DNA of 64,000 nucleotides from Aureococcus anophagefferens (taxonomy: Eukaryota > Sar > Pelagophyceae > Pelagomonadales > Pelagomonadaceae). This document shows, piece by piece, positions 2,573-59,554 of the stretch. The stretch is taken from positions 597,667 to 661,666 of the forward strand of contig NW_008705577.1 of assembly GCF_000186865.1 (NCBI RefSeq), in the 5' to 3' direction. The notes beneath the pieces are model-generated. The model was not told the DNA's origin, searched no databases, and was given only the letters and a program-made list of their open reading frames with translations. A program made the translations under genes and the position numbers. How positions within the stretch are numbered: position 1 is the first letter of the stretch; each line of letters starts with the position of its first letter.

Positions 2573-4658
2573 ATGGTTCGCGTCGCGGCGGCGCTGGCGC
2601 TCTGCGCGGCCGTCGGCGGCGCGCCGGCCGCGGAGCCGCCGGACAGTGCCGTGTCGACGGCGGCGCTGCACGACGGCTGGCACCGGTACGGCATCGCGCT
2701 CCGCGACGCCGGCGACGTCGAGGGCGCCATCGCCGCCCAGCGGCGCAGCGCCTTCCACGGGCCGTACCTGCCCCACGCCTGGCGCCACCTGGGCAACGCG
2801 CTCATGCGCGGCAGCGTCGCCCTCCTCGACGTCCACGCGGGCCTCGCCTGCGGCCTCGCGGTCGAGAGCCGCGACGCTTTATCGCTCGCGGACGTCCACC
2901 TCGGCGACGCGCACGCGCCCAAGGGCCTCGCGGTCCTCGCGCGCGACGTCTTCCCGCGCCTCCCGCGCGACTGCGCCGGCGCCGCGGCGGCGGCCCTCGA
3001 CGCCGCCGAGGGGCGCGCCGTCGCCGCGCTCGCCGCGCTCGACGCGGCTCGCGCGCCCGCGCCGGACGCCGTCGCGCGCGCCGCGGCCGCGGCCGTCGAC
3101 GCGTACTGCGCGGACCTCGACGGCATGCACGTCGCCGCGCCCGACCACTCCGCGCTCTCGCCGACGGTCGCGCGGCGCGCCTACGCGGCGCTGCGGCTCT
3201 GCGGCGTCGCGGGCTGTGCCGAATTCAACCACTGGTTTGGGTGGTCCTGACCAAACTTCAGAATTCTCTAGCTCGGTCACATCGGAGTCGATTCGGCTGA
3301 TTTTTGGACGAATCGATCGCTCTCGTCGAGTTCTCGAAGCAGAGCCGAAGAAGTCGCGTCGAAACTGTCGCGTATGCTCACATTGAAGTCGAGTTGAAGA
3401 TTTGAATTCGGCCCAGGTCGCGGGCGTCGCGAACGCGCTCGACGGCGCCGCGCTCGCCGCGGCCGGCGCGGCCGAGCGCGCGGCGCGCGGCGCGCTCGAG
3501 CGCGGCGACGGCGGCCGGGGGCTGACGGCGACGGCCGCGGACGGCGACGAGCCCCGCGTGTCCGGCCGGGGGCCGAACCGCTTCGAGGTCGAGCTGCCCG
3601 CGCTCGACGCGGCCGCCGCCCGCGCGCGCGTCACATCTTCGACCCGACTTCACTGTGCGCGCATGCGACCGTTTCGACACACGCTCTTCGGCCGCGCTTC
3701 GAGATCTCAACGAGAGCCATCGATCCGTCCAGAAATCAGCCGAATCGACGTCGACGTGACCGAGCTCGAGCATCGCAGAGTTTGGCGGGGACGTCCCGAA
3801 CCGGCGGTCGATTCGCGCGCAGGCCGTCGCGGCGCCGGCGGTCGTCGCGAACGGCCTGCTCCACCCCCTCGCCCAGCTCGTGCTGGGCACGGCGGCCGTC
3901 GAGCTCGACGCCGTGTCCTCCGTCGTCGCCTACCCGGGCGCCGTCGAGCAGGGGCTCCACGGCGACACGCCCGCGATCGTCGACCTCGTCCGCAAGTCCG
4001 CGGCGCTGCCGCGGCTCCCGGGGCCGCGAACGGGCGACGCGACGCGAGCGCGCCGCGCGCGCGCGTCCCGGAAAAAGCATCCGCGCGTCGAGGGCGCTCC
4101 GAGAGATGGTCGCTCGTCCGAGCGTCGGCCGAAGCGAGCGGACGACGGCCGAGATCGGAGCCTTTCACCCGTTCGCGGCCCAGGCAGCTCCCGCCCCACG
4201 GGGTCATCGCCATCGCGCCGCTCGTGCCCCTCGTCCACGGCGAGAACGGCGGCACGGCCTTCGAGGTCGGCAGCCACGTCGCCAAGCTCCTCCCCCTGTG
4301 CCGGCCCGCGTGGTCGCGGGCGTCCGACGCGCCGCCGGGCCCGCTGTCCGTCCGGCCCGCGGCCGCGCCGAACGTCGGCGACATCTACGTCTACGACCTG
4401 CGGGTCCACCACTTCGGCATGCCGTTCCCGCCGTCGACGTCCGCGCCGCCGCGGCCGCTCCTCAGCCTGCCCTACGTGAAGAACTGGTACGTCGACGCGG
4501 TCAACCACCCGACGCGGCACACGGACGGCTACGGCGCGCTCGACGACGTCACGAAGAAGCTCCTCGTCCGCGTCGACACGCGCCAGCACCACGAGGCCCT
4601 CTTCCAGGCCGCGGCCACGTGCGAGGAGCCCGCCGCCGCGCGCGCGGGCTGGTTCTAA
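2573..4658 (+). CDS. TPR / phytanoyl-CoA dioxygenase-like secretory protein, split by three introners
   Basis: Predicted 2-oxoglutarate/Fe(II) oxygenase of 496 aa, built from exons 2573-3205, 3417-3611, 3823-4010 and 4184-4658. The total is divisible by three and the last exon ends at TAA. The first residues (MVRVAAALALCAAVGG) look like a signal peptide. Next comes a TPR-like helical pair (HRYGIALRDAGDVEGAIAAQ, then AWRHLGNAL). The oxygenase part has the iron-binding HxD in EQGLHGDTPA and a distal histidine in YDLRVHHFGMP, as in PhyH-like enzymes. Substrate and location are unknown; ER or secreted is inferred from the leader. All three introns are introner-type insertions with 8-bp target duplications. 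An unspliced transcript would be frameshifted or stopped. A related PhyH-like gene lies at 45332-46878. Confidence 0.8.
3206..3416 (+). mobile_element. Introner-derived intron, family 1, copy A
   Basis: Intron of 211 bp made of an 8-bp target duplication (GTCGCGGG at 3206-3213, repeated at 3417-3424) plus a 203-bp element at 3214-3416. The element begins CTGTGCCGAATTCAA and ends TTGAATTCGGCCCAG, a terminal inverted repeat matching at 14 of 15 bases. The GT donor lies in the upstream duplication and the AG acceptor is the element's own right end. Removal is phase 0 and joins ...LRLCG to VAGVANAL. The body is clearly less GC-rich than the exons and matches the copies at 3612, 16416 and 57882. 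Confidence 0.9.
3612..3822 (-). mobile_element. Introner-derived intron, family 1, copy B (inverted)
   Basis: Intron of 211 bp carrying a 203-bp family 1 element in the opposite orientation to copy A, 195 bp further on in the same gene. The target duplication is GCCGCCGC at 3612-3619 against GCCGTCGC at 3823-3830, one mismatch. With the donor in the duplication this is a GC-AG intron, phase 0, joining ...LDA to AVAAPAVVANG. A GT at 3630 could also serve as donor and would keep frame. The ends are more GC-rich and eroded than in the other copies (…CGCGCGCAG). Confidence 0.82.
4011..4183 (+). mobile_element. Introner-derived intron, family 2, copy A
   Basis: Intron of 173 bp: duplication GCGGCTCC (4011-4018) against GCAGCTCC (4184-4191), plus a 165-bp element whose ends (CGGGGCCGCGAAC and GTTCGCGGCCCAG) form an inverted repeat. 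The donor is GC inside the duplication and the acceptor is the element's CAG. Splicing joins ...SAALP to QLPPHGVIAI in frame. The interior resembles the element at 45621-45820 (CGAGAGATGGTCGCTCGTCC here, CGAGAGATGATCGCTCGTCC there). Confidence 0.82.
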
Positions 4659-4671
4659 CAGGATGCAACTA

Positions 4672-4695
4672 ACATATCCCGCCGGCGGGATATGT
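4672..4695. repeat. 24-bp perfect palindrome between convergent genes
   Basis: A perfect palindrome with half-site ACATATCCCGCC lies 13 bp after the stop of the PhyH-like gene and 80 bp before the stop of the convergent CASD1-like gene. A partial copy sits at 12982-13000 and a half copy at 20170-20182, each just after the 3' end of a plus-strand gene. It may mark 3' ends or be the relic of a small dispersed element. Confidence 0.6.
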
Positions 4696-4774
4696 CAAAC
4701 GCCGCTTCAACAATTGCTTCCGAAGGAGTCCGAAGTCAACTTGAACATGAACTTCTTAAGTACCGCGGGTCTTC

Positions 4775-7700
4775 CTAGACCATCTCCCGCGCCGGCGGGC
4801 CCGGCGAGCCCGGCGCCTCGCCGTCGCCGTCGTCGGCCTCCGTGACGGCGACGGCCGCGTAGGCCGGCGGCGGCGGCGGCTCGCAGCGCGAGAGCACGTC
4901 CGCGGCGACGTAGCCGCCGAAGGCCGCGACGGCGGCGGCGCCGAGCGCGACGGCGCCGCCGGCGCACGCGAGCGCGCGCATGGCGCCGTAGACCGCCGCC
5001 GCCGCGGCGAGGAGCGCCGCCGTCGGCGCGGGCCGCGCCTCGGCCGCGTCGCGGAGCTCCGCCGTGCGGACGAAGACGCGGTGCGCCGCGACGAGCCATA
5101 AAGTCGCGGCGAGCGCGAGGTTGCAGAGGGGCCAGTCCTCGTCGGGAAGGAGCCAGAGCACGCCGCCGGCGCTCCGGTTCATGAGCAGGTGGAACTGGAG
5201 GAGGTAGAGCTCGAGCGACCGCGCGCCGACCCACTCGAGCGGCATCGACACGGAGTTCCGCGACGCGGGCGTCGCGTTGCGCAGCAGCGCGTAGAGCGGC
5301 ACCCAGAGCGTGCCCACGTAGGGCTGGACGTCGCGGTAGGCCGCGGGCTTCGCGTGCGTCGCCCAGGCGACCGCGCCCGCGGCCGCGAGCGCGGCCGCGG
5401 CGGCGGCCGCGGCGCCCTTCGCGGTCTTCGAGCGATCCCCGACGACCCACACGGCGACCACGGACGGGAGCGCCGCCGCAAAAACCGCGCCGAAGAAGGA
5501 GCTCAGGTAGTCCATGCGCGTGCGGTACCAGAAGTAGGTCTCGAAGGGCGCGCCGAACGCCGAAGAGAGCGCGGGCCGGAGCGCCAAATCGTAGCCGCCG
5601 AACTCCCAGACGGCCGCGGCGACGGCCGCGTAGAGCACGAGCGCCGGCAGCGCGCCGAGGAGGTCCAGCCCGCGCCCGGCGCCGCCGGGCAGGCACCGGC
5701 GGCACGCGCTCGCCAACCCGAACGCCGCGAAGCAGAGCGCGAAGTGCACCGTGTGCAGGGCCACCACGTAGTAGGCGATCCAGTGCGTGCCCGTCGCCAG
5801 CGACAGGGGCGCGGCGAAGCAGTTGATGCGCCAGACCATCTTGAGGAAGCGCGCCCCGCTGAAGTCGGACGTCTTCCAGAAGTAGCGCGCGTTCCCGAAA
5901 CCCGTGAGCCAGACGTACGCGGACACGAACCAGCGGATGGGCACGTAGACGCCCTGGGCGTTGGCGTAGTGGTAGGCGACGAAGGCGACCTGCATCCAGC
6001 CCTTCCACTCGTTGCACTGGGCCCGGTTGAAGAAGAGGGCCGGGTCCGCCGCGTCGTTTTGGATGCTCCTGACCATCGGCGGCGCGAAGCACACGACCGC
6101 GAGGAGCGCCATGGCGAACCACCAGAGGTCCGGGTTCTCGCCCAGGAGCCGCGACCCGGCGGGGAGCACGGCACTCGGCGCGACGGCGTCGCAGAAGGCG
6201 GCGACGAAGACCCAGGCCGCGAGCTCGAGCGCGGCCGCCGTCGCCGGCGCGGCGCCCGGCTCCGGCGCGCGCGCGCGCGGCGCGCCCGCGGGTCGCCGCT
6301 TGCCGCGGATCTCGGGCAGCTCGACCTCCGGGGTCTGCGGCGCGCCCGTCGCGGCCCGCGCGCGCCGCGCCGCGAGGCGGGGCACCGCGACGACGCGCGC
6401 GGCCGCGCCGACGAACGCGAGCGCCAGGAGCGCGATGAGCCGCGCGCCCGGCGCGAGCACGCAGACGCCCCGCCCCCCCGCAAAGGCCGCCCCGAGGCCC
6501 GCCCGGAAGGTTTTCAGGGCGTCGCGCCAGGCCCGGGCGTCGACGGCCTTGTCCGACGCGCAGCCTCCGGGGAACGCCTCGCGGACGCCGTGGCCGCCGA
6601 GTATCTCGGACGCGCCGCCGCCGTAGCCGACGCCGCCGGCGCCGTCGTCGTCGACGAAGGCGGGCTTGCTCTTGGCCGCCGCGCCGCCCGCCGCGCCGTC
6701 GGCCGCCGCGCCGTCCGTCGGCCGCGGCGTCGGCCGCGGCGTCGGGCGCGGCGTCGGCGCGGCGGCGCAGCGCTTCGCCTCGCGGAGGTCCCCCGGGCCG
6801 TCGCCCGCCGCGCAGGTCCCCGTCGCGCAGTCGCCGGCGACGTCGCAGGTCGCCCCGACGGCGCAGGGGGCGCAGGTGCCGCCGCAGTCGACGTCGGTCT
6901 CGCCCGCGTTTCGAGCGCCGTCGGCGCAGTGCGCGGACGTCGGCGCGAAGGACGTCGGTGGCGCGGAGGTCGGCCGCGGCGCGGGCGCGCGCGTCGCGCC
7001 GGCCTTGTAGGCGTCGCTCCTGCGCGTGCCGTCGGCGCGCGCGGGGAAGACGCGGCCGTCGACGGCGAGCGCGCTCAGCAGGAGCTGCGTCCAGATGTGG
7101 TAGAGCGGGGCCACGGGGTGCCGCCCGTCCTGCGTGCGCGCGTAGACGTTCCACTGGTTCGAGAAGCCGTGGACGTCGAGGAGGGGTAACGGCGGGCCGC
7201 TTTTCTTGCTGACGAATTTTCCCGCGAGGAAGTTGTAGTGGTCGACGCCCTTGACGGCTTCGACGCGCCGACTGTCGCGGTCCTCGTCGTCGTCGACGCA
7301 CGTCTCCGTCGTGTACTCGCCGCAGCAGGGCGACGTCCGCAGGTAGGCCGCGGGCACCCGGTCGAGGAGCAGGGTCGCGTAGTCGTCGAGCGTCTGGGCC
7401 AAGTTGCTCTGGCAGCCCGCGGGGTCGCCGAAGCCGTAGGCGTCGCCGCAGGGGCAGTCCTTGAGCTCCCACCAGCCGACGTTCGCGAGGACGAGGTCGG
7501 CCCAGGGCGCCACCGTGTCCTCGAAGAGGGGCCTGGCGAAGGGCTCGATGGTCTTCCAGTCGAGCATGAACCAGAACTGCGTCGTGATCGCGTCGTCGAC
7601 GAGGTCGTCGCCGCAGAGCGCGCGGGCGTCGTCGGGCACGGGGTGGGTCTTGATGAAGTGCTGGCGGTGCGTGCTCGACTCGGACCAGTCGGGGTCGTAC

Positions 7701-8671
7701 CAGCGGCTCGCCTCGTCGTAGTGCGCGGAGCCCTCGCCGTCGGCCCACTTGGAGTCCTCGAGCTTCTTGAGGCGCGTGTCGACGCGGCCCGTGGCGAGCC
7801 ACTCGTTGAAGATGAAGTAGTGGAAGCGCGTCACGCTGTCGCCGACGAAGGCGACGTGGGGCGTCGCGGCGAGGAGGCAGAAGGCCTCGGCGCGCGAGAC
7901 GTCGGCCCCGTTGTAGGCCTCGACGTTTTCGCCCGTGCCCGCGAAGCCGAGCGTGAGCGCGAGGGACGCGCGCGCCGTGGACCGCACGTCCTTGAGGGGG
8001 TCCTCGTAGTAGGTGTCGACGAGGGCCGGGTTCGTCGGCTTGTTGTGCGCGTCCGCGAGCCTCCGCCTGGACGGCGCCGCGGGGCCCGCGCCGGCGCGGA
8101 CGGCGACGGCCGCGTCGGGGTCGGGCGCCACGTGGAAGGGACGGCCGGCGCAGTGCGCCTCCAGCCGCGCGGCGAAAGTCTCGAGGGTCGCGCCGCCCGC
8201 CGCGACGGCCGCGGCCGCGGCGCCGCCCGCGGCGACGCCGCCCAGCGACCGCGCGGGGGACCCGAAGCGGTCGCCGGCGTCGGGCAGCGCCACGCCGCAG
8301 GCGCCGCCCTCGAGCTCGCCGAGCGCCGCGGCCCAGGCGCGCGCCGCGACGCGGCGCACGGGGCCGCCCGCGTCGCCGTCGACGACCGCGAAGGCCGCGT
8401 CCGCGTCGCGCGCGCGGTGCGCGGCGACGAGCGCGGCGACGTCCGCATTTTCTGCCGCGACGACGGCCGCGCGGCCCAGCGACGCCGCCGCCGCGGCCTC
8501 GACGCGCGCCACGTCGGCGCGCGGGGCGACGATCGTGACGTCGAGGCGCGTCGTCGCGTACTCCAGGCTGCGCAGGCTGTGGGCCGCCTGGTCCGGGCTC
8601 GGGGCGAGCAGGAGGACGTGGAGGGCGTTCGCCGTGCACGCGAGGAGGAGGAGCGTCGACGCTGGCGGCAT
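4775..8671 (-). CDS. CASD1-like carbohydrate O-acetyltransferase (SGNH esterase-type domain plus Cas1p multi-pass domain)
   Basis: A 1298-aa intronless protein with a leader ([17 protein letters not shown]). The lumenal half holds an SGNH/PC-esterase-type domain with the GDS motif in [19 protein letters not shown] and a late D-x-x-H in [12 protein letters not shown] short Cys-rich repeat ([16 protein letters not shown]) and a PTPRPTPR linker follow. The C-terminal half is a multi-pass Cas1p-type acyltransferase with the family signature [20 protein letters not shown], then [13 protein letters not shown]. In CASD1 and plant RWA/TBL systems this pair moves acetyl groups onto sugars in the Golgi; sialic acid is an unlikely substrate in an alga, so a cell-wall or mucilage glycan is inferred. 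It is convergent with the PhyH-like gene. Confidence 0.9.
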
Positions 8672-8951
8672 CGAGCTTATAGGCTACTGGTTAGCTTCGG
8701 CAGGTCAGCATCGTCGTCGACAATTTTCAGTTTGATGCGGAAGCGCGACCTTGGCGAGAGGCCTGGGGTAGGCTTGGGGTACTCGTCCGCTGGACGGGTC
8801 GAGGACTCGGCCGCGGGCAGGCCCGGGCAGGCCTGCGCGCGCGAGCGGGCGACGTCGCGTGCTGCGGCTGATGTTTTAAAACGGGGAGGGCGGGAGGTCG
8901 GGGGATTGGCGACCGCGGCGCCGCGGCGGCGGGCGCGGCGGGCGCCGGGGC

Positions 8952-10391
8952 CTACGCGGCCTGCGTCTTGGCGAAGAAGAAGTCGTCCTCGGGCTGGATG
9001 GTGCCCTTGGGGAGGAAGCCCTGGAGCTCGTCGGCGTGCTCCAACAACAGCCGTCGTCGGGCCTCCTGGACGACGCGGAGGCGGTACTCCTCGGATTTGA
9101 GCGCGTTGCCGTTCTCCTCCATCTCCGCGGCCTTGGCGCGCTCGTAGACCTCCTGGCGCTCGATCTTCTGCAGCTTGACGGCCTCGATGTACTTGGCCTT
9201 GTCCGCGGCGCGGCGGTCCGCGATGAGGCGCTCGTTGCGCTCGTCCTCGGCGAACTTGTGCCGCATCGTCTCGACGAGGCGCTGCTCCTCCTTGCGCTCG
9301 ACCTCGCGCTGCTTCTGCTTGGCGACGAGCATCTCCTCGTTGGCCAAAGCCATGTCGCGCTTGTTCTGCTGGCGCTTGGCCTCGCGGTCCTGCTCCTCCT
9401 TGCGCCGCTGCGCCTCCATCTCCTCCTCCCACAGCAAGTCCCGGAGCGCCTGGAGCTCCTCCTCCTCGGCGCGGTGCTTCTCCGTCTCGGCGACGATGCG
9501 CTCGAAGGCGGCCTTGTCCCGCGCCTTCTTCTCGGCCTTGAGGCGGAAGAGCTCGGACTCGCGCGCGGCGAGCGCGTCCGCGTGCTGCTGGATCTGCGCG
9601 TCCTCGAACGCCGCGCGCTCCTTGGCGTCGACGAGCTCGCGGCGCCGCTGGGCCTCGTACTGCTTGATGAGGGCGCGGCACTCGTCCTTGCGCTTCGACC
9701 GCTCGTCGAGCTCCCGCGTGTCCTCGGCGATGATCTTCCGGACGACGGCCTCCACCAATTCGCGGTCGCGCTCGGCCTCGAGGCGCGCCTCCTCGGCGAG
9801 CTTGAGGCGGTCGGCCATCTGCTCCTGGAGCGCCGCCTTCTGCTTGAGCAGCACCTCCTTCTTGCTGCCCGCCTTCTCGTGCTCCGTCTCGAGCGCGGCC
9901 CGGCGGTCGCACTCCATCTGGTCGTCGATCGCGTGCTCGCGGAGCTGGTGCCGCCGCTGCTGGAGGATGCGCTCCTCGTGCTGCGCCGCGCGCTCCTTGT
10001 TCATGTAGGCGACCTTGAGCTTCAACTCCAGCTCCTTGAGCTCCTCGGACTCGCCGCAGATGCGCTGCACCTCGCGCTCGCGGCGCTCGCGCTCGGCCTG
10101 GCGCCGCTCGAGCTCGCCGGCGAGGGCCTGGGACTGGTGCACCTCGAGCTCGTGGCGCTTCGCCGCCAGGGCCCGCTCGTCCTGGATGCCCTTGATCTGC
10201 GCCTCCGTCGCGAGGCGCAGCGCCTGCGCCGCGCGGCGCCGCTGCGGGATGGAGATCTCGCTCTGGGCCGCGATCTGGAGCCGACTGCTGTCCTCGACGT
10301 AGTGGTGGAGCAGCTTCATCGTGTTCTCCTCCATGCGCCGCTTCCCCATCATCGTGTCCACGCTCGACGTGTTCATGCGCCGGTTCGCCAT
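8952..10391 (-). CDS. MNS1: MNS1-type axonemal coiled-coil protein (TPH domain)
   Basis: A 479-aa protein, almost entirely charged coiled coil rich in Glu, Arg, Lys and Ala, as in the trichohyalin-plectin-homology family. The order of segments and the C-terminal signature (LLLEHADELQGFLPKGTIQ) match MNS1, a microtubule inner protein of ciliary doublets. Length is close to animal MNS1 (about 495 aa). The single frame starts at an ATG at 10391 and ends at TAG at 8952. Along with enkurin at 23.8 kb it indicates axoneme capacity. Related TPH proteins (CFAP45, CFAP53) are less likely because of the C-terminal motif. Confidence 0.82.
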   Translation of the reverse strand: MANRRMNTSSVDTMMGKRRMEENTMKLLHHYVEDSSRLQIAAQSEISIPQRRRAAQALRLATEAQIKGIQDERALAAKRHELEVHQSQALAGELERRQAERERREREVQRICGESEELKELELKLKVAYMNKERAAQHEERILQQRRHQLREHAIDDQMECDRRAALETEHEKAGSKKEVLLKQKAALQEQMADRLKLAEEARLEAERDRELVEAVVRKIIAEDTRELDERSKRKDECRALIKQYEAQRRRELVDAKERAAFEDAQIQQHADALAARESELFRLKAEKKARDKAAFERIVAETEKHRAEEEELQALRDLLWEEEMEAQRRKEEQDREAKRQQNKRDMALANEEMLVAKQKQREVERKEEQRLVETMRHKFAEDERNERLIADRRAADKAKYIEAVKLQKIERQEVYERAKAAEMEENGNALKSEEYRLRVVQEARRRLLLEHADELQGFLPKGTIQPEDDFFFAKTQAA

Positions 10392-12003: not shown

Positions 12004-12048
12004 ATGTCCGTGGCGAGGCGTCCGCGGCGCAACCATCACGCAGGCTTC

Positions 12049-15996: not shown

Positions 15997-16943
15997 ATGT
16001 ACTGCCGCTGCGTCGTCCTCCTCTGCGCCGGAACGGCAGCGTTCCAGACGCGCAACGTGCAGCTGCAGCAGACGCAGACGCGCCGCCCAGCGACGATCGC
16101 TCCCGAAGAAGTCGCAACAGACGAGTCGTCCATCATCATCGACGAGGAGAAGATGCTCGCCGCGAGCACGTTCCCGCTGAAGCCCGACGAGCTCATCGCG
16201 CTGTCGAAGCAGTTCCTCGAATCCCGCGGCGGCTTCGGCGCCGACGAGGCGCTGCTCGCCGACTCGTTCGAGTTCGTCGGGCCGGTCGTCGGCCCGCTGT
16301 CGAAGGCGGCCTTCGTCAACGCCATCGGCTCCGTGGACATCGACAAGGCCTTCCCGGACTTCCAGGGCCAGTTCTACGGCTTCTTCGTCGACCCCTACGA
16401 CCTGAACCGCGTCTGGTACCACCGCTGTGTGGAAATCAACCGCTGGTTTGGGACGTCCCGACCAAACTTTGACATTCTCTAGCTCGGTCACATCGAAGTC
16501 GCTTTGGCTGATTTTTGGACGAATTGATTGCTCTTGTCGGGTTCTCGAAGCATAGCCGAAGGTTCTGGTCCAAACCGTTCAATTACGCTCATATTGAAGT
16601 CGGGTGGAAGATTTGAGTTCCACACAGGTACACCGCGCGCGGCGAGGGCACGAACACCGGCCCGCTGCCGCCGTTCGCGCCCGTCGCCACGGGCAAGAAG
16701 CTCGTGAACCCGCCCCAGGTCTGCTCCCTGACCTTCGACCGCAGCGGCCTCGTCACGAAGTACACCATCGGCTACGTCGTCGACCGCGACGTCGGCACGA
16801 CGGGCGGCCTCGGCGGGCTCTACGGCGTGCTCTACGCCATCGGCCGGCCGCTGCCGTTCCCCGAGGCCCAGCCGTGGCGCAAGTCGCCCCAGTACGCGCT
16901 CTTCCAGGCCGTCGGCGGCGCGCTCCAGGCGCTCCTCGGGTAA
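15997..16943 (+). CDS. SnoaL/NTF2-like plastid-type protein with an introner
   Basis: Exons 15997-16415 and 16628-16943 give 244 aa. The start MYCRCVVLLCAGTAAFQTRN has the hydrophobic leader with an aromatic after the cleavage point (AAF-QT) typical of heterokont plastid precursors. The mature region has the SnoaL/NTF2-like layout: helix LKPDELIALSKQFLESRG, LLADSFEFVGPVVGPLSKAAF, a curved-sheet segment, and CSLTFDRSGLVTKYTIGYVV. Such proteins are common in diatoms and pelagophytes and mostly uncharacterised. The frame extends upstream to an ATG at 15934, but the Met at 15997 puts the hydrophobic leader first. Without removal of the introner the frame stops at 16482. Confidence 0.82.
16416..16627 (+). 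mobile_element. Introner-derived intron, family 1, copy C
   Basis: A 203-bp element (16425-16627) with terminal inverted repeat CTGTGTGGAAATCAA / TTGAGTTCCACACAG. The duplicated target is GTACCACCG (9 bp, intronic copy) against GTACACCG (8 bp, exonic copy at 16628-16635); the extra C is in the intronic, unconstrained copy. The donor GT is the first two bases of the intronic duplication, the acceptor is the element's CAG, and the phase is 2. Sequence is close to copies A and D throughout, e.g. CTCTAGCTCGGTCACATCGA. Confidence 0.9.
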
Positions 16944-45335: not shown

Positions 45336-46878
45336 CTTACGCGCGGGGGCGGTTCGAACACGCTCTCGTTGTCGTCCCAGTTCTTCGGGTCGCGGAACCA
45401 GAACTCCGTGAAGTTCGCGTAGGGCACCGCGCGGACCGCGCGCCGGGACCGGTTCGGCAGGCCGAAGTGGAGCACGCGCGCGTCGAAGATGAGCGCGTCG
45501 CCGGCCGCGAGCCGCGGGCGCACGAGCGCGTCCTGGACGCGCCGCAAGAGCACGTCCCGCGGCTCGGCCTCGTCCGTGAGCCGCGCGCACGTCGCGAGGT
45601 CGTGGGACCCGGGCACGAACCTGGGCAGGACAAGGGTGATTCAACGTCGCTTCAACGTGGGTGTTCCGCGCGCGCGCGTTCCGGGAAAAGCATTCACGCT
45701 TCGAGACCGTTCCGAGAGATGATCGCTCGTCCAAAAATCAGCCGAAACGAGTGGAAAGTGGGCGAAATCGGAGCCTTTGAAGTTGGGAATTTCGCTCTCT
45801 TGTCCTGCCCGGGCACGAACGCCGTCTGCCCCGCGGCCGGGTCCGCGGCCGCGGCGCCGCCGTAGAGGAAGACGTTGAGGTAGTGCGGCGGCAGCACGCG
45901 GTCGTCGAAGAGGTGCGGCGCGTCCGCGTGCAGGGCCTGCTCCGCGGCGCCGGGCACGCTCACGACGGCGCCGACGGGCCCCGCGTCGAGCGCGCGCTTC
46001 GGCGCGTCGGGCCCGCCGAGGTCGAAGTTCCACAACCCAAAGTTGCCCCGGCGCGCCGCCGTCCGCGGGGCCTCGCTCGCGAGGCGGCAGATCTCCCGGA
46101 GCGCGCCGTTGTTTCGGAGCGCGTGTCGCCGCTCCGCTCCTTCCTCTCCCTTTAACCGCGGCGTCCCCCGGAGGTCGCAGCGCAGGTCCTCGCGCATGGC
46201 GAGCTCGCGGTAGGTCTCGACGTGCGGCGCGCCCGGGTCCATGAGGTCGACGCCGCGGTGTTCCACGAGCGCGGCGCGGCAGGCTTCGAAGTCCGCGAGC
46301 GCGTCCGCGGCGAGGCCGTCGGCGACGGCCGGGTCGAGCAGCCCCGGCAGGATGACTAAACCATGGGACCGCAACGTCCGCGCCGCGCGCGCCGCGAAGG
46401 CCGCCGCGGGCAGCGGGCCGGCCGCGCGCCGCGCCGCGACGGCGAGCCCGTGCGCGCGCTCGTGCTCCGCCTCCGACGCGGGCGGCCGCGGCGCGCAGCC
46501 GACCTCGTCCGCCGTGCACAGCCGCTTCCCGAAGACGACGGCGGCGCCGCCGCGCCAGCGCTCGACGAGCGCGGGACCGGCGCTCCTCGCCGCGGCCGCG
46601 GCCGGCCCGACGACGGCGACGGCGCCGCCGCGCGCGACGGCGGCGACGGCGTCGCCGAGCGCGTGCACGACGAGCGCGTCGCAGGCGGCGCCCGGCGACG
46701 CGACGTCGAAGCCGGCGCCGCGCGCGCGGTCCTCGTAGGCGCCGTCGACGTCCGGCGCCACGACGATGACGGGCTTCACGGCGCCGACGGGCGGCACGAG
46801 CCGCGCGAGCTCCGCGACGACCTCGCCGACGGTGTCGCCGTCGTCCTCCTCGCTCGTCGAGCCGTCGAAGAGGTCCAT
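45332..46878 (-). CDS. PhyH-like 2OG-Fe(II) oxygenase with an introner
   Basis: Exons 45821-46878 and 45332-45620 give 448 aa. The N-terminal third (MDLFDGSTSEEDDGDTVGEV, VIVVAPDVDGAYEDRARGAG) looks like a separate alpha/beta region. From about residue 165 the oxygenase domain follows: TLRSHGLVILPGLLDPAVAD, iron-binding HxD in EQALHADAPHLF, and the distal His and Arg in FDARVLHFGLPNRSRR. The start matches phytanoyl-CoA-dioxygenase-like proteins. Splicing of the introner joins AAGQTA to FVPGSHDLATC; without it the frame ends in unrelated sequence. The gene is related to the one at 2573-4658. Substrate unknown. Confidence 0.85.
45621..45820 (-). mobile_element. Introner-derived intron, family 2, copy B
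   Basis: A 200-bp intron in a minus-strand gene. Perfect 8-bp duplication GTTCGTGC (minus strand) at 45813-45820 and 45613-45620; element of 192 bp at 45621-45812. The terminal repeat is CCGGGCAGGACAAG / CTTGTCCTGCCCAG, 13 of 14 matching. The donor is the GT of the duplication and the acceptor is the element's CAG. An internal block (45698-45750) matches the core of family 1, including CGTCCAAAAATCAGCCGAA, against CGTCCAGAAATCAGCCGAA in copy B at 3612. Confidence 0.9.
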
Positions 46879-50289: not shown

Positions 50290-50322
50290 AGGGAGGACAG
50301 TACTAGTAGTTAAAAAAAGAAA

Positions 50323-52510: not shown

Positions 52511-52540
52511 GCGGGCCACGCCCCCGGCGGCGGTTTTTTT

Positions 52541-52590
52541 NNNNNNNNNNNNNNNNNNNNNNNNNNNNNNNNNNNNNNNNNNNNNNNNNN
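52541..52590. other. Assembly gap of 50 N
   Basis: A fixed-size run of N, preceded by eight T and followed by GC-rich sequence. True length is unknown. The flanks 52511-52896 (386 bp including the gap) show no recognisable gene. Confidence 0.99.
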
Positions 52591-52896
52591 AACCCGCCGC
52601 CTCCGCCGTGACGGCGGCCGCGAGGCCGCCCGCCGCGGCGAGACCGACACCGAGGGCCCGGGCGGGGCCCCAGGATCGCGACGTAGAGTCCGCTGTGCGT
52701 CCCTACCCACGCTTCTTTGGGGGCGGTGCGCGTCGTCTGGTCGGTCGCGACGTCGTCCGCCGGCCGCGGCCGCTAGGCTAGCGGCGCTAGCCGCTCCCTA
52801 CTATGGCGCTGCTCCGGGGCCACGGCCCAGGCTCTCGAGCCGCGGCTAGCCGCTCTCTCGGTCGCCGCCCAGCGACTTCGCTAAAACAGCCGGACC

Positions 52897-53805
52897 TTAC
52901 TTCGCCTTGGACTTGCGGGGCTTGGGCTTCTTGCCCTTGTCCTTCGCGTCCTCCGCCGGCGGCGCGGGCGGCGCGGGCGCCTTGGGCGGCAGGGCGAAGG
53001 GCTTCGGCGGGCTCGGCGGCGGCTCGAGGGTCCGGGGCGGCAGCGTCGGCGCGTTCTTCTTGAACCAGGCGAGCGTCTTATCGTTGAGGAACTTGAGGTG
53101 CTCCTTCGACCGGAAGTAGTGCCCCAACGTCGCGTCGAGCGTCGCCACGGACGCCTTCTCCTTGGGCTCGGGCATGGAGGCGTAGACGTCTCGCATGACC
53201 TTTTTCCCCGCGAAGACGTCGACGTCGCCCCAGAGGAAGAGCTTGGGCTTCGCGCACCGCGCGTGGTTCAGGTACGTCTCCCCCTGGAGGTTGCAGCAGT
53301 ACCAGAGGTAGCTCGCGGGGTAGGACACGGCCACGTAGCCCGCGAACTCGTCGAAGAGCCCCGCGGCCGCGGCGCCGATGGCGCTGCCGTAGGACACGCC
53401 GAGGATCCACACGGACTCGAGCGGCGGCAGGCCGTGGTGCTTCCGCGACGCGTGGAGCCAACGCGCGACGTCGCGCACGTCCTCGCACTCGCGCAGCGGG
53501 CTCCGGAAGTACGTCGCGCCCTCGGACGCGCCGACGCCGCGGAAGTTGAAGCGCACGGTGCAGTAGCCCGCGAGCGCGAGCTTCGCCTGCGTGACGCCGA
53601 TCTCGGGCACGTAGCAGTTGCCGTTGGGCGGCAGCGGCGGGCACATGACGACGGCGACGGAGCCGCCCTTGAGGTTCGCCGTGCGCGCCTCGAGCTTCGT
53701 GCCGTCCTTAGTGGTGATCCGGCACTCGAGCTCTTTCTCCGCCATCTTGCAGAGCAGGTCGACGTTCATCGGCTTGTCGCGCTTCTTCTTCTCCGGCGGC
53801 GGCAT
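52897..53805 (-). CDS. Alpha/beta hydrolase of the dienelactone-hydrolase/KANL3-like type
   Basis: A 302-aa protein from the Met at 53805 (MPPPEKKKRDKPMNVDLLCK). The alpha/beta fold is visible: VAVVMCPPLPPNGNCYVPEI, YCTVRFNFRGVGASEGATYF, nucleophile elbow WILGVSYGSAIGAAAAG, FLWGDVDVF with the acid, and the late histidine in DATLGHYFRSKEHLKFL. The C-tail is Pro/Ala/Lys-rich (PPKAPAPPAPPAEDAKDKGK). The pattern GASEG after RFNFRG is typical of small serine hydrolases of unknown substrate. The frame is open upstream to 53892 through a repeated SSRNA unit encoded by the direct repeat described separately, so a longer start is possible. Confidence 0.82.
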   Translation of the reverse strand: MPPPEKKKRDKPMNVDLLCKMAEKELECRITTKDGTKLEARTANLKGGSVAVVMCPPLPPNGNCYVPEIGVTQAKLALAGYCTVRFNFRGVGASEGATYFRSPLRECEDVRDVARWLHASRKHHGLPPLESVWILGVSYGSAIGAAAAGLFDEFAGYVAVSYPASYLWYCCNLQGETYLNHARCAKPKLFLWGDVDVFAGKKVMRDVYASMPEPKEKASVATLDATLGHYFRSKEHLKFLNDKTLAWFKKNAPTLPPRTLEPPPSPPKPFALPPKAPAPPAPPAEDAKDKGKKPKPRKSKAK

Positions 53806-53808
53806 TTT

Positions 53809-53857
53809 CGCGTTTCGGGATGACGCGTTTCGGGATGATGACGCGTTTCGGGATGGC
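53809..53857. repeat. Direct repeats just upstream of the hydrolase start
   Basis: Three units of CGCGTTTCGGGATGA (15-18 bp, one with an extra TGA) lie in tandem, followed by a degenerate fourth. Unit lengths are multiples of three, so they stay in the hydrolase reading frame and would add Ser-Ser-Arg-Asn-Ala units if the upstream ATG is used. Confidence 0.7.
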
Positions 53858-53989
53858 GTTTCGCGTCGAGCGGGATGGCGTCGCGCCCACACCTCAGCTG
53901 ATCAGCTGCGAGGAGGCACTCTGACGGCAAAGAGCTGATCTTGTGGCAAACAGCGACTCTTTGCCTCGGCAGGCGCCGACTCGAGGCCG

Positions 53990-55021
53990 ATGCGAGCGTC
54001 TTCAAGCGCTGCGTGCGCCGCGATCGGTGCGCTGCTCGCGTGCGGCAATGCGCTCGTACCGTCGCATCGCTGCGTCCTCGCGCGCGTCGCGCGTCGCGCC
54101 GCAGATGTTGATGCAGAGGCGCCGGTGACCGCAGACGATGCCACAGCGCCAGCCGCAGCCGGTGCCACACCGCCGGCCGCCGGCGATGCCGCAGCTCCAG
54201 CTGCCGACGAGACCGCATCGGCCGACGCCGAGGAGGCGCCGCAAGCGAGCGCGCCGATCGCGACGACGGCCTCCTGGCGCCTGGCGCTCAACGTCGGCCG
54301 CGAATCCGGCACGTGGATGCCCGACGACTGGGCCGCGAGCGGCGCGCGGCTGCTGCTGCCCGTGTCGTGCGAGTTCACGGCCGACCAGTACCTGGGCGAG
54401 CCCGAGCCCCTCGTCGGCAGGACATGCTTCCGCGTCCGGCCCCTCGGCGAATCGACCTTCGTCGGCGCGGGCGGCACGGTGAACGTGAAGGTAAAAGGCG
54501 GCGCGTGGAGCGTCGCGCCGCCGAAGCCCGGCGAGCGGCCCGCGCGGCTGCGGTTCTGGCTCGAGTTCCCGGAGGCCTGCGCGCGCAACGACGTCGAGCT
54601 CCCCGCGGGCCGCGTCTTCTTCAACGCGCCCGTCTGGCAGCGGCCCGAGCTGGACGCGGGCGCCGACACGCTCGCGGACGCGGAGGCGCTGCTCAAGACG
54701 CGGCAGGCGGCGCTCGACGCGCACTTCGACGAGCACGGCGACGACCTGACGCCCTTCGGCGCGCCGCTGCGCTTCCGCAAGCGCGTGGACCTCGTCGACG
54801 CGCGCGACGTCGCGCTGCGCCGCGTGAAATTCGTCAAGCGCCTCATGCCCGACGGCGCCGTCGTGCCCGGGCCCTGGCCGGGCGTCGCGGCCGACTCGGC
54901 GCTGAACGTCGGCGCCGGCGGCCTCGTCGTCAAGCGCCGCGGGCGCATCGGCGTCGGCGTCGAGTACCACATCCTCGGCAAGTTCGCGTGCGCGCCCCTC
55001 GGCGACGGCGCGGGCGCGTAA
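53990..55021 (+). CDS. Plastid-type protein of unknown function
   Basis: A 343-aa protein. The start MRASSSAACAAIGALLACGN is a signal peptide, and ALVPSHRCVLARVARRAADV behind it is a transit-like segment, so plastid delivery is likely. An Ala/Pro/Asp repeat linker follows (DATAPAAAGATPPAAGDAA). The conserved part begins at WRLALNVGRESGTWMPDDWA and continues with ARLLLPVSCEFTADQYLGE, KVKGGAWSVAPPKPGERPAR, LRFWLEFPEACARNDVELPA and GRVFFNAPVW. This text resembles a conserved family of algae and plants without an assigned role, as I recall it. No catalytic motif is visible. Complete and intronless. Confidence 0.78.
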   Translation: MRASSSAACAAIGALLACGNALVPSHRCVLARVARRAADVDAEAPVTADDATAPAAAGATPPAAGDAAAPAADETASADAEEAPQASAPIATTASWRLALNVGRESGTWMPDDWAASGARLLLPVSCEFTADQYLGEPEPLVGRTCFRVRPLGESTFVGAGGTVNVKVKGGAWSVAPPKPGERPARLRFWLEFPEACARNDVELPAGRVFFNAPVWQRPELDAGADTLADAEALLKTRQAALDAHFDEHGDDLTPFGAPLRFRKRVDLVDARDVALRRVKFVKRLMPDGAVVPGPWPGVAADSALNVGAGGLVVKRRGRIGVGVEYHILGKFACAPLGDGAGA

Positions 55022-55157
55022 GGCTCATGGTCGGTACGTTTCTCGGGATGATCTACTAGATCATCTAGGGGAGGTCGACGGATTGTCGAAGGCAACACCA
55101 CTTCAATCGACTTTTTCGAACCAGGCCGATGGCTGGCTCGAGAATCCTGACTAAACG

Positions 55158-56630
55158 ATGTGGGTTTGTGCCCTCTGTACTCTCCAGAATGGCAACGACG
55201 AGTGGCTAGCGTGCGACGCGTGCGGCACGCCGAAGGCGGGTCCGCTACCGAGCGCTGCGCCGAGCACTGCGTCATCCAGTGCTCCTCCGACTGCGCCACC
55301 TGCGCCCGAGGCCGCGGCGCCGACGAGCGCTGCGTCATCCACCGCGCCTCCGGCTGCGCCGCCCGCGGCCGCGGCACCCGCGCCGCCGACGGCGAAGCCG
55401 CTGGCGGGCATCTTCCTGCCGAAGAAGCGCGCGTCGACGGCCGCGGACGCGCCCGCCGCGAAGAAGCGCGCGTCGACGGCCGCGGGCGCGCCCGCCGCGA
55501 AGAAGCCCGCGGCGACGCCCGCGGCGCCCGCGCCGCGCCGCGGCGGGCCGCGGCGCGCGACGGAGTGGTGCATCAAGGCGGCGCGGACCTACCGGCTCCA
55601 CTTCGCCTGTTCCCGCGACGCCGCCGGCGCGCTCTCGGCGACGCTGGCCGTCGGCCCGACGGCGCCGCCCGCCGCCGGCGCGGCGCGTCTCTACGAGGGC
55701 TCGCGGCCGACGAAGCTCGCGCTGGGCCCCGACGACGCGTCGCCCGCGGCCGAGTGCGTCGTGACCCTGACCCTCGACGCGCCCGCCGGCGCCGCGGCGC
55801 CGCCGCCGTGGGCGCCGCCCTACGCCGACTACGACGGCCGCCGCGACTGCGGCGCGATCACGCTCCTCCAGTCGCACCTCCAGAAGTGCGTCCGCCGGGG
55901 CCGCGCGGGCCTCGCCGCGCGGAGCGCGCGCGCGCTCGCGTGCGTCGCCTTCGGGCCGGCGAACCTCGTCGGCCTCGCCGCGCTCCTGCGGCGGCTGCCG
56001 ATCATCGCCGTCGAGGATAGCGCGCCGCTGCCGGCCGCGGTGCTGCCGGTGGTCTGGCTCATGGCCGCGACGGGCGCCAAGCCCCGGGACACGGACTACC
56101 GCGCGACGGCGCCGGACGTCGCCTTCGCGTGCGCCGCCGCGGCCGCGCTCGCGAAACACCCGCGCCGCGGCGGACGGGACGGGCGGCGGAGCGCGGGCGA
56201 GCTGCCGCGCGACGCGCTGAGCCTCGCGCTCCTCGTGCGCAAGGCCTACGGGGGCATGGCGGGCGACGGGGCCATGCTCGCGGCCTACGCGTACGGCGAC
56301 GGCGACGACGACGACGACGCGGTGCGGGGCCTCGGCCCCCAGCCGCCGCTCCGGCCCGAGGACTGGATCGCGGAGGGCGTCGACTTCCACTGCAAAAACG
56401 GCGAGATCCTCGCGCGCATGCGCGCGGCGACCCCCGCGCTCGCCGCCGTCGACGACGGCGCGCTGAAGGCGTGGATGTGGCGGACGCGGTCATCAGTGAA
56501 CGTCCGCGACGGCGCGGGCGCGGGCTTCGGCCGGGCCCGGCCGCCGCCCGCGTGGCAGGACGCGGCCGCGCGCGCGGCCGACGACGCGGCGCGCGCCATG
56601 ATCCGCCGCGCGTGGCGCGGCGCGTCGTAA
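55158..56630 (+). CDS. RanBP2-type zinc-finger protein with unknown helical domain
   Basis: A 490-aa protein. Residues 1-28 form a RanBP2-type finger (WVCALCTLQNGNDEWLACDA, then CGTPK), which binds RNA or ubiquitin in other proteins. An Ala/Pro linker with repeated KKRASTAADAPAA units follows. The compact part starts near residue 135 (CIKAARTYRLHFACSRDAAG). It contains AITLLQSHLQKCVRRGRAGL, LLRRLPIIAVEDSAPLP and VVWLMAATGAKPRDTDYRA, a helical block that looks conserved but which I cannot name. The tail is VDFHCKNGEILARMRAATP and a basic Ala-rich end. The gene is convergent with the C2/EF-hand gene, 34 bp apart. Confidence 0.75.
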   Translation: MWVCALCTLQNGNDEWLACDACGTPKAGPLPSAAPSTASSSAPPTAPPAPEAAAPTSAASSTAPPAAPPAAAAPAPPTAKPLAGIFLPKKRASTAADAPAAKKRASTAAGAPAAKKPAATPAAPAPRRGGPRRATEWCIKAARTYRLHFACSRDAAGALSATLAVGPTAPPAAGAARLYEGSRPTKLALGPDDASPAAECVVTLTLDAPAGAAAPPPWAPPYADYDGRRDCGAITLLQSHLQKCVRRGRAGLAARSARALACVAFGPANLVGLAALLRRLPIIAVEDSAPLPAAVLPVVWLMAATGAKPRDTDYRATAPDVAFACAAAAALAKHPRRGGRDGRRSAGELPRDALSLALLVRKAYGGMAGDGAMLAAYAYGDGDDDDDAVRGLGPQPPLRPEDWIAEGVDFHCKNGEILARMRAATPALAAVDDGALKAWMWRTRSSVNVRDGAGAGFGRARPPPAWQDAAARAADDAARAMIRRAWRGAS

Positions 56631-56664
56631 AGGGGGCGTTACGAGTGACGGGGGGCTCGGGTCT

Positions 56665-59554
56665 TCACTCGTCCTCGCCGAAGGACTCCATGCGCGCGTC
56701 GACGGGGCTCGCGGGGTCGTCGTCGTCGCCCGGGGGCGGCTGCTCGATGATGGCGTCGATGTCCGCGAGCTGGTTCGGGTCGAGGGACAGGTCCGTGCCG
56801 CGGCGCAGGGCCTGGACGTTCTTCGGCAGGGGCAGGGGCACGCCCGTGCAGGCGAGCGTGAGGAGGTCGACGAGCGGGTCGCGGAAGAGCGGGCTCACCT
56901 CGAAGAGCAACGGCTGCGAGAGCCCCGGCGCGTGCACCGCGACGCGGTTGAGCTTGGCCGCGTCGGGCTCGACCTTGGTGATGCCCGTCACGGAGACCTT
57001 GTCGCCCTTGCGCTTCGCGTAGGCCAGGTCGTGGACGAGGTAGCCGCCGCCGTTGGGCTCGGGCTTGTCGGGCGCGGGGAAGAGCGTGAGCGCCGTCGCG
57101 TGGCTCCGCGCGCTGTTGAAGGCGAGCGCCTTGGACGTGGGCAGCTTGACGCACTGGAGGCCGCCGTCGCTGTGGAGCTGGCGGCTCAGCTCGTCCTGCG
57201 TCAGCACCTCGACGCAGCCCGTCTTGCGGACGATCTCCGTGAACTCGGCCTTGTCGATCTCCCCGTCGCCGTTGACGTCGAACTTGGCCACGAGGCGCTC
57301 GACGACGCGCGCGACGGCCGTCGGGCAGCCGCCGAACATGGCCTGGGCCCGCGGCGACGCGTTGGGCATCGCGCCGACGATGAAGTCCGTGAGCTCCTTG
57401 CCGTCGACGGAGCCGGAACCGTCCTCGTCGAGGCGGCTGAAGATGCCCGTGACCACGGTCTTGATGAGGCGCTTGTTGTGGCTCTTGCCGAAGCCCGGCA
57501 GCGTCGACCGGCTCAGCTCCGCGAGCACGGGCCGGTCCGTCGGGTGCGCCAACACCGAGATCGCGCCCCGGTCGCCCGTGCCCAACTTCAACTTCCGCAG
57601 CTCGACGTAGCGGCTCCGCGCCTTGGCGCCCTTGGCCGCGACGCGCTCCAGCGCCTTGAGCTTCTCCGTGAGCACGAAGAAGGCGCCGCAGACCGCGGGC
57701 ACGAAGAACATCCACAGCGGCGTCACGTAGTGGAACAGGACCATGAAGACGTTGCCCGCCAAAATGGGCAGCGTCTTCTTCGGCTCCTTCCACTCGAACA
57801 AGTCGCGGACCTCGGCGACGTCCTTGGCCGTGGCCCCGAGCTGGCGCATCGCGAGCGCGGGGCCCGACCCCGCCTTCTTGCCTGTGTGGAAATCGACCGC
57901 TGGTTCGGGACGTCCCGACCAAACTTTGACATTCTCTAGCTCGGTCACATCGAAGTCGATTCGGCTGATTTTTGGACGGATCGATCGCTCTCGTCGAGTC
58001 CTCGAAGCACAGCGAAAGTTCCTGTGTCAAAACATTCGAATACGCACACATTGAAGTCGGGTTGAAGATTTGATTTCCACGCGCCTTCTTGCCGGCGAGG
58101 TTGATCATCTTCTTCGCGATGCCCGACACGGGCCCCTTGTGGTCCTCCTTCCTGTCGCCGTCGTCCTTGGGCTTCCGGAAGCTCAGCGACCGCTTCTTCT
58201 TCTCGCCCCCGGCCGCGCCCGCGAGCAGCGCCGCGGCCTCGGGGTCCTCGGGCTCGTCGTCGACCTCCTCCTCGGCCTCCTCCTCGGCCTTGTCGAAGCC
58301 CATGATCGACGGCGAGTCGATGCACAGCTGCGTGAACTCGTCGAGATCCAGCTCGCCGCCGCCGTCCTCGTCGGCCTTCTTGAAGAGCGCGTCGATCTCG
58401 TCGTCCGGCGGCGGCGGCCGCGCGTTCTTCGTCGCGAGCTCCGCCATCGCCAGACCGATCTCGGACCGGTCGAGGGACCCGCCGCCGTCGGCGTCGATGC
58501 GCTGGAAGCAGGCGGCGGCCTCCGCGCGGATCACGTCGAGCTTCTTCTTCTCGAAGTAGTTGTGGACGAGGAGCGCGACGATGGCCAAATGCAGCATCTC
58601 CCAGAAGTACTCGATGAAGAACGCGACGAAGAGGCAGATCGCGAGCCACGTGCGCGACTTGCGCTCGTCCTTCCAGGTCACGATCTTCTCCGCCGCCGTC
58701 GCCACGTCCAGGTAGGGCTTCATCTCCTTGTTCAGCGCCATGCCGTTCGTGTAGAGGAGGTTGATGTCGAACTTCGTCGCGTCCTTCGTCTTCCGCTGCT
58801 CGGCCCAGAGCATGGACGACGCCTCGCCGAGCGCGCTCACCTCGTACTCGAGGTGGAGGTGCACGGCCGCCGACGCCGCCGTGAAGCCCTCGGCGATCTC
58901 GAGGGGCACCCAGCGCTTCACGAGCCCGAGGAAGCTCAGGTCCCTGATCGGGATCTCGACGGACCCCAGGAGGTCGTCCGCGGACGACACGTCGAGGTCG
59001 TAGATCTCGACGCGGAGCACGGCGTCGTAGCGCGGCACGAAGAACTCGCACTGCTCGTGCCAGCCCGGGTTCAACGACTTCTTCACGGTCGCGCTCTGCC
59101 ACGTCTGCCGCTTCTCCTCGGTCCACTCGTTGCCGTACTTGTTCTTGCCCGTGATGATGAGCCGCGCGTAGGGGTCCGACTTGCCGCCGAGGTCCGCCGC
59201 GGGCAGGTTCGCCGCCTCGATGAGCTTGACCTTGAGCTTGCCGATGCGGAGCCGCTGCTGGTACGCGGGGCCCATGACGACCGCGAGCTTGAAGCGCTTC
59301 TTCGCCTCGTCGCTCAGGTAGTCCTCGTAGACGTTGTCCTCGTGGTCCTTGCGCGCCTCGGACGCGACGAACTCGACGACCTCCTTCGTCGTCATCTTCT
59401 CCCCCTTGACGTTCGTCGCCGCGCTCTTGCCCTTGGCCGGCGACGGGCTGCCGCCCTTGCCGCGCAGGAACCCGCGCGCCTTCTTCTCACTCGACGGCGG
59501 CGACGCCGCCGCCGGGGCGTCCCGGGCCTCGGCACCGGGCGCCGCCGCCGTCAT
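56665..59554 (-). CDS. C2-domain / EF-hand membrane protein with an introner
   Basis: Exons 58093-59554 and 56665-57881 give 892 aa. A basic disordered start is followed by a C2 domain (KLKVKLIEAANLPAADLGGK, SDPYARLIITG, VLRVEIYDLDVSSADDLLGS). A hydrophobic hairpin comes next (SRTWLAICLFVAFFIEYFWE), then two EF-hands (RIDADGGGSLDRSEIGLAM and KADEDGGGELDLDEFTQLC). After the introner come a second hydrophobic hairpin (AGNVFMVLFHYVTPLWMFF), another EF-hand pair (RLDEDGSGSVDGKELTDFI and KFDVNGDGEIDKAEFTEIV) and a C-terminal beta-rich region. The layout resembles MCTP or synaptotagmin-like proteins at membrane contact sites; calcium-regulated lipid or membrane tethering is inferred. Confidence 0.88.
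57882..58092 (+). mobile_element. Introner-derived intron, family 1, copy D (inverted to its gene)
   Basis: A 203-bp element (57882-58084) whose plus-strand sequence matches copies A and C, inserted antisense to the minus-strand C2/EF-hand gene. The duplication is perfect: CTTCTTGC at 57874-57881 and 58085-58092 (GCAAGAAG in the gene). In the gene's sense the donor is GC of GCAAGAAG and the acceptor is CACAG from the element's other end. A GT donor 11 bases later would also keep frame and add four residues. The terminal repeat allows an acceptor to be supplied in either orientation. Confidence 0.9.

Follow-up and report, generated by a model that had tools for sequence, protein, structure and literature searches.

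Introner elements of the 64-kb window

The window, which is the whole 64-kb stretch of Aureococcus anophagefferens DNA that was analysed, carries four predicted introns (A to D), each containing a 203-bp element of one family, here called F1. Intron A (3206-3416, forward strand, 211 nt) begins with the 8-bp upstream duplication GTCGCGGG (3206-3213), which provides a GT donor and matches its downstream copy at 8/8 positions. The element (3214-3416) follows in gene sense and brings the CAG acceptor at 3414-3416, while the second GTCGCGGG (3417-3424) is exonic. In intron B (3612-3822, 211 nt) the gene lies on the forward strand and the element (3620-3822) on the reverse strand, and it is therefore inverted. 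Its upstream duplication GCCGCCGC (3612-3619) gives a GC donor and matches GCCGTCGC (3823-3830) at 7/8 positions, and the acceptor CAG is retained at 3820-3822. Intron C (16416-16627, 212 nt) has the GT donor in GTACCACCG (16416-16424), which is one base longer than the downstream GTACACCG (16628-16635); the two match at 8/8 if this base is an indel. All three features of copy C are on the forward strand, the element (16425-16627) has intact ends, CTGTGTGG...CCACACAG, and its orientation to the gene was taken from its protein frame. Copy D is on the forward strand (57882-58084) within a gene of the reverse strand and is hence inverted, with the acceptor CAG at the 57882 end. Read on the gene strand, its upstream duplication GCAAGAAG (58085-58092; other copy 57874-57881, 8/8) provides a GC donor and the intron runs from 58092 to 57882 (211 nt).

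The four elements had been pointed out by a sequence-only reading, and direct reading and BLAST within the window agree on their places. That reading had also claimed 8-bp duplications around all four (A 8/8, B 7/8, C 8/8 with one indel, D 8/8), donors taken from the upstream duplication (GT in A and C, GC in B and D), an element-borne CAG as acceptor in every copy, an orientation of B and D in their host genes opposite to that of A and C, and no coding capacity of the element, and it was right on each of these points. Its description of symmetric CTG...CAG ends holds for A and C, where they are intact, but not for B and D as they stand now: there the donor-side end has decayed (GC-rich in B) and the acceptor CAG is kept. 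In the BLAST comparison, pairs among A, C and D were 82-87% identical (E 1e-52 to 1e-66) and copy B was 77-82% identical to the other three (E 1e-34 to 1e-51). The remaining matches were weaker and fell at about 45.7 kb and in short GC-rich stretches.

The match at 45.7 kb is a copy of a second family, F2, which has two copies in the window, one of them a GC-rich relic. These two further related introns were absent from the earlier reading. The first is a 192-bp introner (45621-45812) on the reverse strand in a gene of the same strand; its intron runs from 45820 to 45621 with a GT donor and a CAG acceptor, and the upstream duplication on the gene strand is GTTCGTGC (45813-45820; other copy 45613-45620). 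Read inwards, its ends are CCGGGCAG on the donor side and CTGGGCAG on the acceptor side. The relic F2-type intron (4011-4183, forward strand) is marked by the duplication GCGGCTCC (4011-4018) and GCAGCTCC (4184-4191) and contains a GC-rich 165-bp element (4019-4183) that ends in CAG and matches the F2 profile with 81 bits over 4041-4166. A blind scan of the window for 8-bp duplications with inverted repeats gave 199 pairs, almost all of them GC-rich low-complexity noise (21, 24 and 31 pairs in three shuffles); its one use was to draw attention to the pairs at 45613 and 4011.

None of the six introns has a length divisible by three (the remainder is 1 or 2), and their retention would shift the frame. 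Copy A would add three in-frame stops if retained; B, D and the relic at 4011 would add none. The exons between A, B and the relic are 195 and 188 bp long, lengths compatible with insertion between nucleosomes.

F1 and F2 across the genome and the donor rule

Searches of the genome (49.05 Mb, 86 contigs) gave 40 scored matches among 1649 first-look candidates with copy C as query and 41 among 1959 with F2. The exact 15-base F1 end CTGTGTGGAAATCAA occurs 394+380 times (774) and its reversed control not once, so the F1 ends are not due to chance. Exact F2 ends are found 1336+1355 times, with 7 for the control. Both families thus consist of many near-identical introns at unrelated positions, their exact terminal repeats lying at 774 and 2691 places. 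The unmodified F1 end CAGTGTGGAAATC gave 5+5 places, never two on one contig, which were taken as mutated copies. Two F1 ends stand 745 bp apart at C1:2651791-2652535 and may delimit a longer element or belong to neighbouring copies.

Profiles were run on the 30 best loci (L001-L030), 20 systematic 10-kb stretches (200 kb in total, 12,741 of it N; GC 0.727) and the window. Matches of nhmmer at or below 100 bits were dropped, which kept 49/70 for F1 and 21/72 for F2, the 72 including F1 copies. Two F1 and two F2 copies truncated at a locus end were also dropped, as was one duplicate (copy C is identical with L001 and was kept as L001). Forty-six distinct F1 copies with flanks were obtained; one is an F2/F1 chimera (L008:292-485), which was counted in both families. 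As most F1 copies, those of L001-L030, are the best matches to copy C, the rates given here are valid for young copies. Above 100 bits, the systematic 200 kb held six copies of F1 and eight of F2, and a rough extrapolation from it would put the genome total at about 1,600 F1 and 2,100 F2.

Tabulation of the flanking 8-mers, a check which the sequence-only reading had proposed, bore out the duplication. At the unfitted profile boundary, 7/8 or 8/8 positions agreed in 36/46 F1 and 14/19 F2 copies; when the left flank of one copy was set against the right flank of another this fell to 0.5% and 0%. After fitting, 45 F1 copies reached at least 6/8, and in these the match per base was 0.89-1.0 across the eight positions and 0.18-0.38 in the bases beyond. 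Both families have an 8-bp duplication, with a noisier fall to background at its edge in F2 (18 copies with at least 6/8) than in F1. Among F1 copies, L020 has neither a clear duplication nor a coding-like flank and the duplication of L016 matches at 5/8.

Codon usage in up to 150 bp of flank on each side served to infer the coding strand, with no use of splice signals. Copies below 6/8 (one F1, one F2) were excluded, and so were two F1 copies that scored low for coding; copy C, whose 1-base indel had displaced the automatic boundary, is one of these two. An AG was present at the acceptor end in 42/43 F1 copies when a boundary shift of 3 nt was allowed. Boundaries were then anchored on this AG, so that counts of acceptor base 2 are true by construction; one F1 copy (the second of L012) and two F2 copies (L006:2015 and the chimera) have no AG at the boundary and stand outside the anchored counts. 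The 42 anchored F1 donors are GC in 22, GT in 19 and GA in one (L015), which makes 41/42 GT or GC, and their acceptors are CAG in 41 and TAG in one. At the donor-side end of the same copies the corresponding base 2 is still T in 29/42. The 16 anchored F2 donors are GT in 11 and GC in 5. Read on the antisense strand, the same duplications start with GT or GC in 10/42 F1 and 2/16 F2 copies (Fisher p 5e-13 and 5e-7). Without anchoring, coding and antisense counts are 37/43 vs 10/43 for F1 and 15/18 vs 3/18 for F2. GC alone is enriched at the start of the F1 duplication, with 22/23 of the non-GT cases on the coding strand vs 8/40 on the antisense strand. With unanchored boundaries, the F1 intron starts between codons in 22/43 copies and in the other two phases in 10 and 11. 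In both families one splice site lies in the element and the other comes from the duplication. That the donor requirement is confined to the coding strand speaks for selection on splicing rather than for a target preference of the transposase, and the rule, present on one strand and absent from the other, makes the case readable from DNA alone.

The interior of F2 is colinear with that of F1 (local score 68; at most 34 in 300 shuffles) while the terminal repeat is different. In gene orientation, most F2 copies start with CAGGGCAG and finish with CTGCCCAG. The acceptor-side end read inwards is CTG, which on the opposite strand gives the acceptor CAG, and the donor-side end of 16 copies is CAG in 10, CGG in 4 and CCG in 2, never CTG; the two ends of the F2 family therefore differ at base 2. 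Among the 66 of 100 listed exact F2 ends that fall in regions listed on both strands, 26 pairs stand 192-193 bp apart, all unlike-ended and 13 each way, and one pair is like-ended, 479 bp apart. This A/A pair at C1:618576-619054 may be a longer element or two adjacent copies. A genome-wide search for like-ended elements of the form CAG...CTG, 178-208 bp long and exact at both ends, found none.

The orientation of F2 in genes follows its unlike ends. The acceptor end is downstream on the coding strand in 16/18 copies with inferred strand; of the other two, L006:2015 is contrary with a tied strand call (margin 0.1) and L008 is the chimera. The test gives 16/17 (p 2.7e-4) with L006:2015 and 16/16 (p 3e-5) without it. 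For F1, the interior shows no bias relative to the gene (19 vs 24, p 0.54), in agreement with the earlier claim that insertion in either orientation gives an intron. One-ended F2 is in this respect a built-in control, and its orientation suggests that survival of an insertion in a gene depends on an AG at the right end.

On these grounds A to D are best read as members of a family of high-copy, short, non-autonomous DNA transposons, that is introners, whose donor comes from the duplication and whose acceptor comes from the element, with F2 as a one-ended sister family; we put the probability of this reading at about 0.94. Duplications and inverted repeats alone would look the same if the copies were ordinary DNA-transposon insertions, disrupting genes or retained in mRNA, with splice-like ends by coincidence. 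This is refuted by the start of the duplication, GT or GC in 41/42 on the coding vs 10/42 on the other strand, and it fits neither the downstream acceptor end of 16/18 F2 copies nor the homologues, which match the spliced proteins; it has hardly any credit left. Spread by RNA, in which introns cut out of one transcript enter others by reverse splicing and return to the genome as copies, predicts a location in genes, and 43/45 F1 copies with a duplication of at least 6/8 do have coding-like flanks, one of the other two being copy C, which is genic. Against it stand the 8-bp duplications and the terminal inverted repeats; reverse splicing would produce no duplication, would give one orientation instead of 19 vs 24, and would carry the donor along, which here lies outside the repeated unit. 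We consider such spread extremely improbable.

In the introner reading, a transposase acting in trans would insert the 203-bp element and duplicate 8 bp of target sequence. The element would supply a CAG acceptor at either end, and the spliceosome would use as donor the GT or GC that happens to begin the upstream duplication. Excision of the element with one duplication would restore the original message, and for this reason insertions at G(T/C)NNNNNN on the coding strand would survive and others would be purged, as the strand-specific enrichment suggests. F2, with an acceptor at one end only, would be kept in genes almost only with that end downstream. Transposition in trans, splicing of the RNA and the purging of unspliceable insertions are the inferred steps of this scheme. 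The model of introners as DNA transposons, favoured by the sequence-only reading, fits wherever it could be tested, in the duplication, the coding-strand donor, the element-borne acceptor and the use of both orientations.

Predicted spliced proteins at the element junctions

Removal of A, B and the relic at 4011-4183, the excision of which restores the frame, leaves a single open frame of 496 residues. Compared with six homologues (51-54% identity), this protein has no gap at A or at the relic. Alongside the junction of copy B it has three residues more than all six, and the B element contains a frame-equivalent internal GT; the exact donor of B is for these reasons uncertain. The junction of copy C sits in the conserved stretch NRVW|YTARG, where 117 of the 120 listed homologues (of 418) are free of gaps over the ten columns that span it. 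Pfam domains were found neither in the 496-residue protein nor in the copy C protein. The host of copy D is a C2/EF-hand protein. Its spliced product is 100% identical to P0007 over residues 60-640 and identical at 879/891 positions overall; P0012 has one extra residue near the junction. P0007 and P0018 are close public matches to spliced proteins, each of them a transcript or a gene model. At the level of predicted proteins, splicing as proposed is supported for A, C and D and is ambiguous by three residues for B. The gap-free alignments at A, C, D and the relic are comparisons at the protein level.

These alignments also bear on the copies that start with GC, for which the true donor could be a GT inside the element (CTGT|GTGG), with 12 nt added to the message. 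Such an addition by an internal donor has been published for one Aureococcus sp. family (PMC9860276, in the legend of Fig. 2F), 12 nt would keep the frame, and 20/22 GC-start F1 copies keep the GT at element base 5 intact. An internal GT would nevertheless not need a GC at the start of the duplication, which is enriched on the coding strand (22/23 vs 8/40, as above). Moreover, copy D spliced from its GC equals P0007 at the junction and shows no indel, and hence no 4-residue insertion, against P0009, P0010, P0011, P0013 and P0014, and the relic at 4011 likewise shows no insertion against six homologues. Use of the internal GT is accordingly judged unlikely, and the GC of the duplication is retained as the predicted donor.

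A further protein, P0008, named as from Aureococcus anophagefferens, is identical to the copy D protein in 646/664 aligned residues, which indicates this species or a close relative as the source of the DNA. Residues 479-504 (26 residues) around the GC-AG intron of copy D are missing from it, as are several other stretches. The gap at copy D looks like a gene-model error but, given the other missing stretches, not necessarily one due to the GC donor. About half of the F1 introns examined have GC donors, and together with the 26 residues missing from P0008 this raises the possibility that standard annotation breaks at many such introns.

Known introners, transposon superfamily and terminal repeats

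In the introners described by Huff, Zilberman and Roy in Nature in 2016, the element reportedly carries one splice site and the duplicated target provides the other, with insertion in nucleosome linkers. PMC9481584, which cites Huff et al. 2016, gives about 210 bp as characteristic of A. anophagefferens introners. The introns studied here belong to the same organism or near kin, are about 210 bp long and differ from those of Huff et al. (2016) in nothing tested. Near kin is as possible as the species itself, since the genome of 49.05 Mb and the sample GC of 72.7% depart from the 56.0 Mb and 67.4% stated for A. anophagefferens in PMC9481584. The four near-identical pieces are therefore small jumping elements becoming introns of a kind already described for A. 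anophagefferens; the observation of the sequence-only reading is correct and its core is a rediscovery. What is added here to that reading is the F2 family, unlike at base 2 of its ends, with its orientation rule. PMC9860276 gives 0 to 50.0% GC donors and 0 to 40.0% GA donors by introner family, together with a preference for nucleosome linkers; those introners are of the same general kind and also use rare GC donors. The Aureococcus sp. family of its Fig. 2F, as the legend describes it, has both splice sites in the element and adds 12 bp, unlike D and the relic at 4011, which add none.

For the birth of introns in large numbers, introners provide some of the best direct evidence. Old copies drift towards GC. 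In F1, changes from AT to GC amount to 0.079 per site vs 0.059 in reverse, divergence correlates with GC (r 0.62, 43 copies), and the relic element at 4019-4183 has a GC of 0.75 vs 0.57 in the intact F2 copy of the window. Owing to this drift, older introners become hard to see.

Duplications of 8 bp are typical also of P and Merlin elements, and by this length hAT, P and Merlin all fit as candidate superfamilies. Neither a TA-centred pattern nor nTnnnnAn, the hAT target pattern, was evident in the F1 and F2 duplications. Pfam profiles for hAT (PF05699, PF04937) and KDZ (PF18758) had no match in the genome, and none in any control genome either; those for MULE (PF10551; three controls positive) and Merlin/IS1595 (PF12762; one control positive) also had no genome match. 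The P-type profile PF21787 had one match, on contig C25 (E 1.4e-9), with three TAG codons inside, and F1 or F2 ends were absent near it in the readable 2.5 kb. Thus, of the transposase sharing the element's ends that the sequence-only reading had suggested looking for, the Pfam searches of the whole genome yielded this one P-type domain, and no transposase linked to F1 or F2. Carriage by viruses was considered from two exact patterns in IMG/VR, which hit 2 and 43 stretches and were taken as chance; against the F1 and F2 profiles, only the two stretches with an 18-base core match (E 0.014-0.049).

F1 and F2 share the 8-bp duplication and short terminal repeats with hAT MITEs and elements (PMC3517528 and PMC3942097). 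One F2 end, CAGGG in most copies, resembles the hAT element Mar (CAG(G/A)GG...) and the end primers of BuT2 (CAGTG...). T at base 2 (CTG) sets the second F2 end and the two F1 ends apart from hAT; with respect to hAT-like CAGNG ends, F2 has CAG on the donor side in 10/16 copies and CTG on the acceptor side, and F1 has CTG at both. A joint reading, which we hold tentatively and at a little under even odds, is that F1 and F2 are sister families and that base 2 of the terminal repeat determines whether an element can form introns. A single base change at each end would have turned a hAT-like element into an introner. One-ended elements would survive in genes in one orientation and two-ended ones in both, which would make the two families a natural experiment. 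Four F2 copies (five with L006:2015, the ends of which fit) have the acceptor at the opposite end of the interior and form one modestly supported group (0.79) in a small tree from which L008 was excluded. Within the joint reading, acceptors at opposite ends in two F2 subfamilies would mean that the base change arose at least twice or moved between the ends.

The chimera at L008:292-485 consists of an F2 donor end followed by an F1 interior and an F1 acceptor end, and it is flanked on both sides by GTCACGGT, a perfect 8-bp duplication. Either it moved as such, in which case one transposase takes both end types, or two copies recombined in place; its structure hints at a single transposase able to handle both kinds of end.

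GC donors and gene models

Among the 42 copies of the 203-bp introner family examined, mostly best matches to copy C, 22 (52%, about half) were found to possess a GC donor, as read from the DNA. The share of GC donors in published introner families ranges from 0 to 50.0% (PMC9860276), and the present family is at or slightly over this upper limit. Residues 479-504, which surround the GC-AG intron D (window 57882-58092), are absent from P0008, a public A. anophagefferens protein model homologous to the product of the copy D gene; this absence is perhaps an annotation error due to the GC donor. Further stretches away from intron D are also missing from this model.

Members of the 192-bp sister family and a chimera

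The gene carrying introns A and B also possesses a GC-rich (0.75) relic of the 192-bp sister family at window 4011-4191, which is still readable from sequence as a GC-AG intron. Between these three introns lie exons of 195 and 188 bp. The minus strand carries a PhyH-type dioxygenase gene with an intact introner of the sister family at window 45613-45820; when this introner is spliced out, the frame is open, and a Pfam search matched PhyH. The sampled genomic locus L008 contains a chimera of both families (292-485) with the donor end from the 192-bp family and the interior and acceptor end from the 203-bp family, flanked by a perfect 8-bp duplication, GTCACGGT.

Transposase-like domain and widely spaced ends

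A P-type transposase domain with three in-frame TAG codons was found at locus L051 (contig C25:178372-178818), and the sequence upstream of it consists of N. On contig C1 of the same genome, two ends of the 192-bp family that are alike, both reading CAG inwards, are spaced 479 bp apart (618576-619054), possibly representing a longer or unmodified element. Exact ends of the 203-bp family face each other at a spacing of 745 bp (C1:2651791-2652535) and represent either one longer element or two copies.
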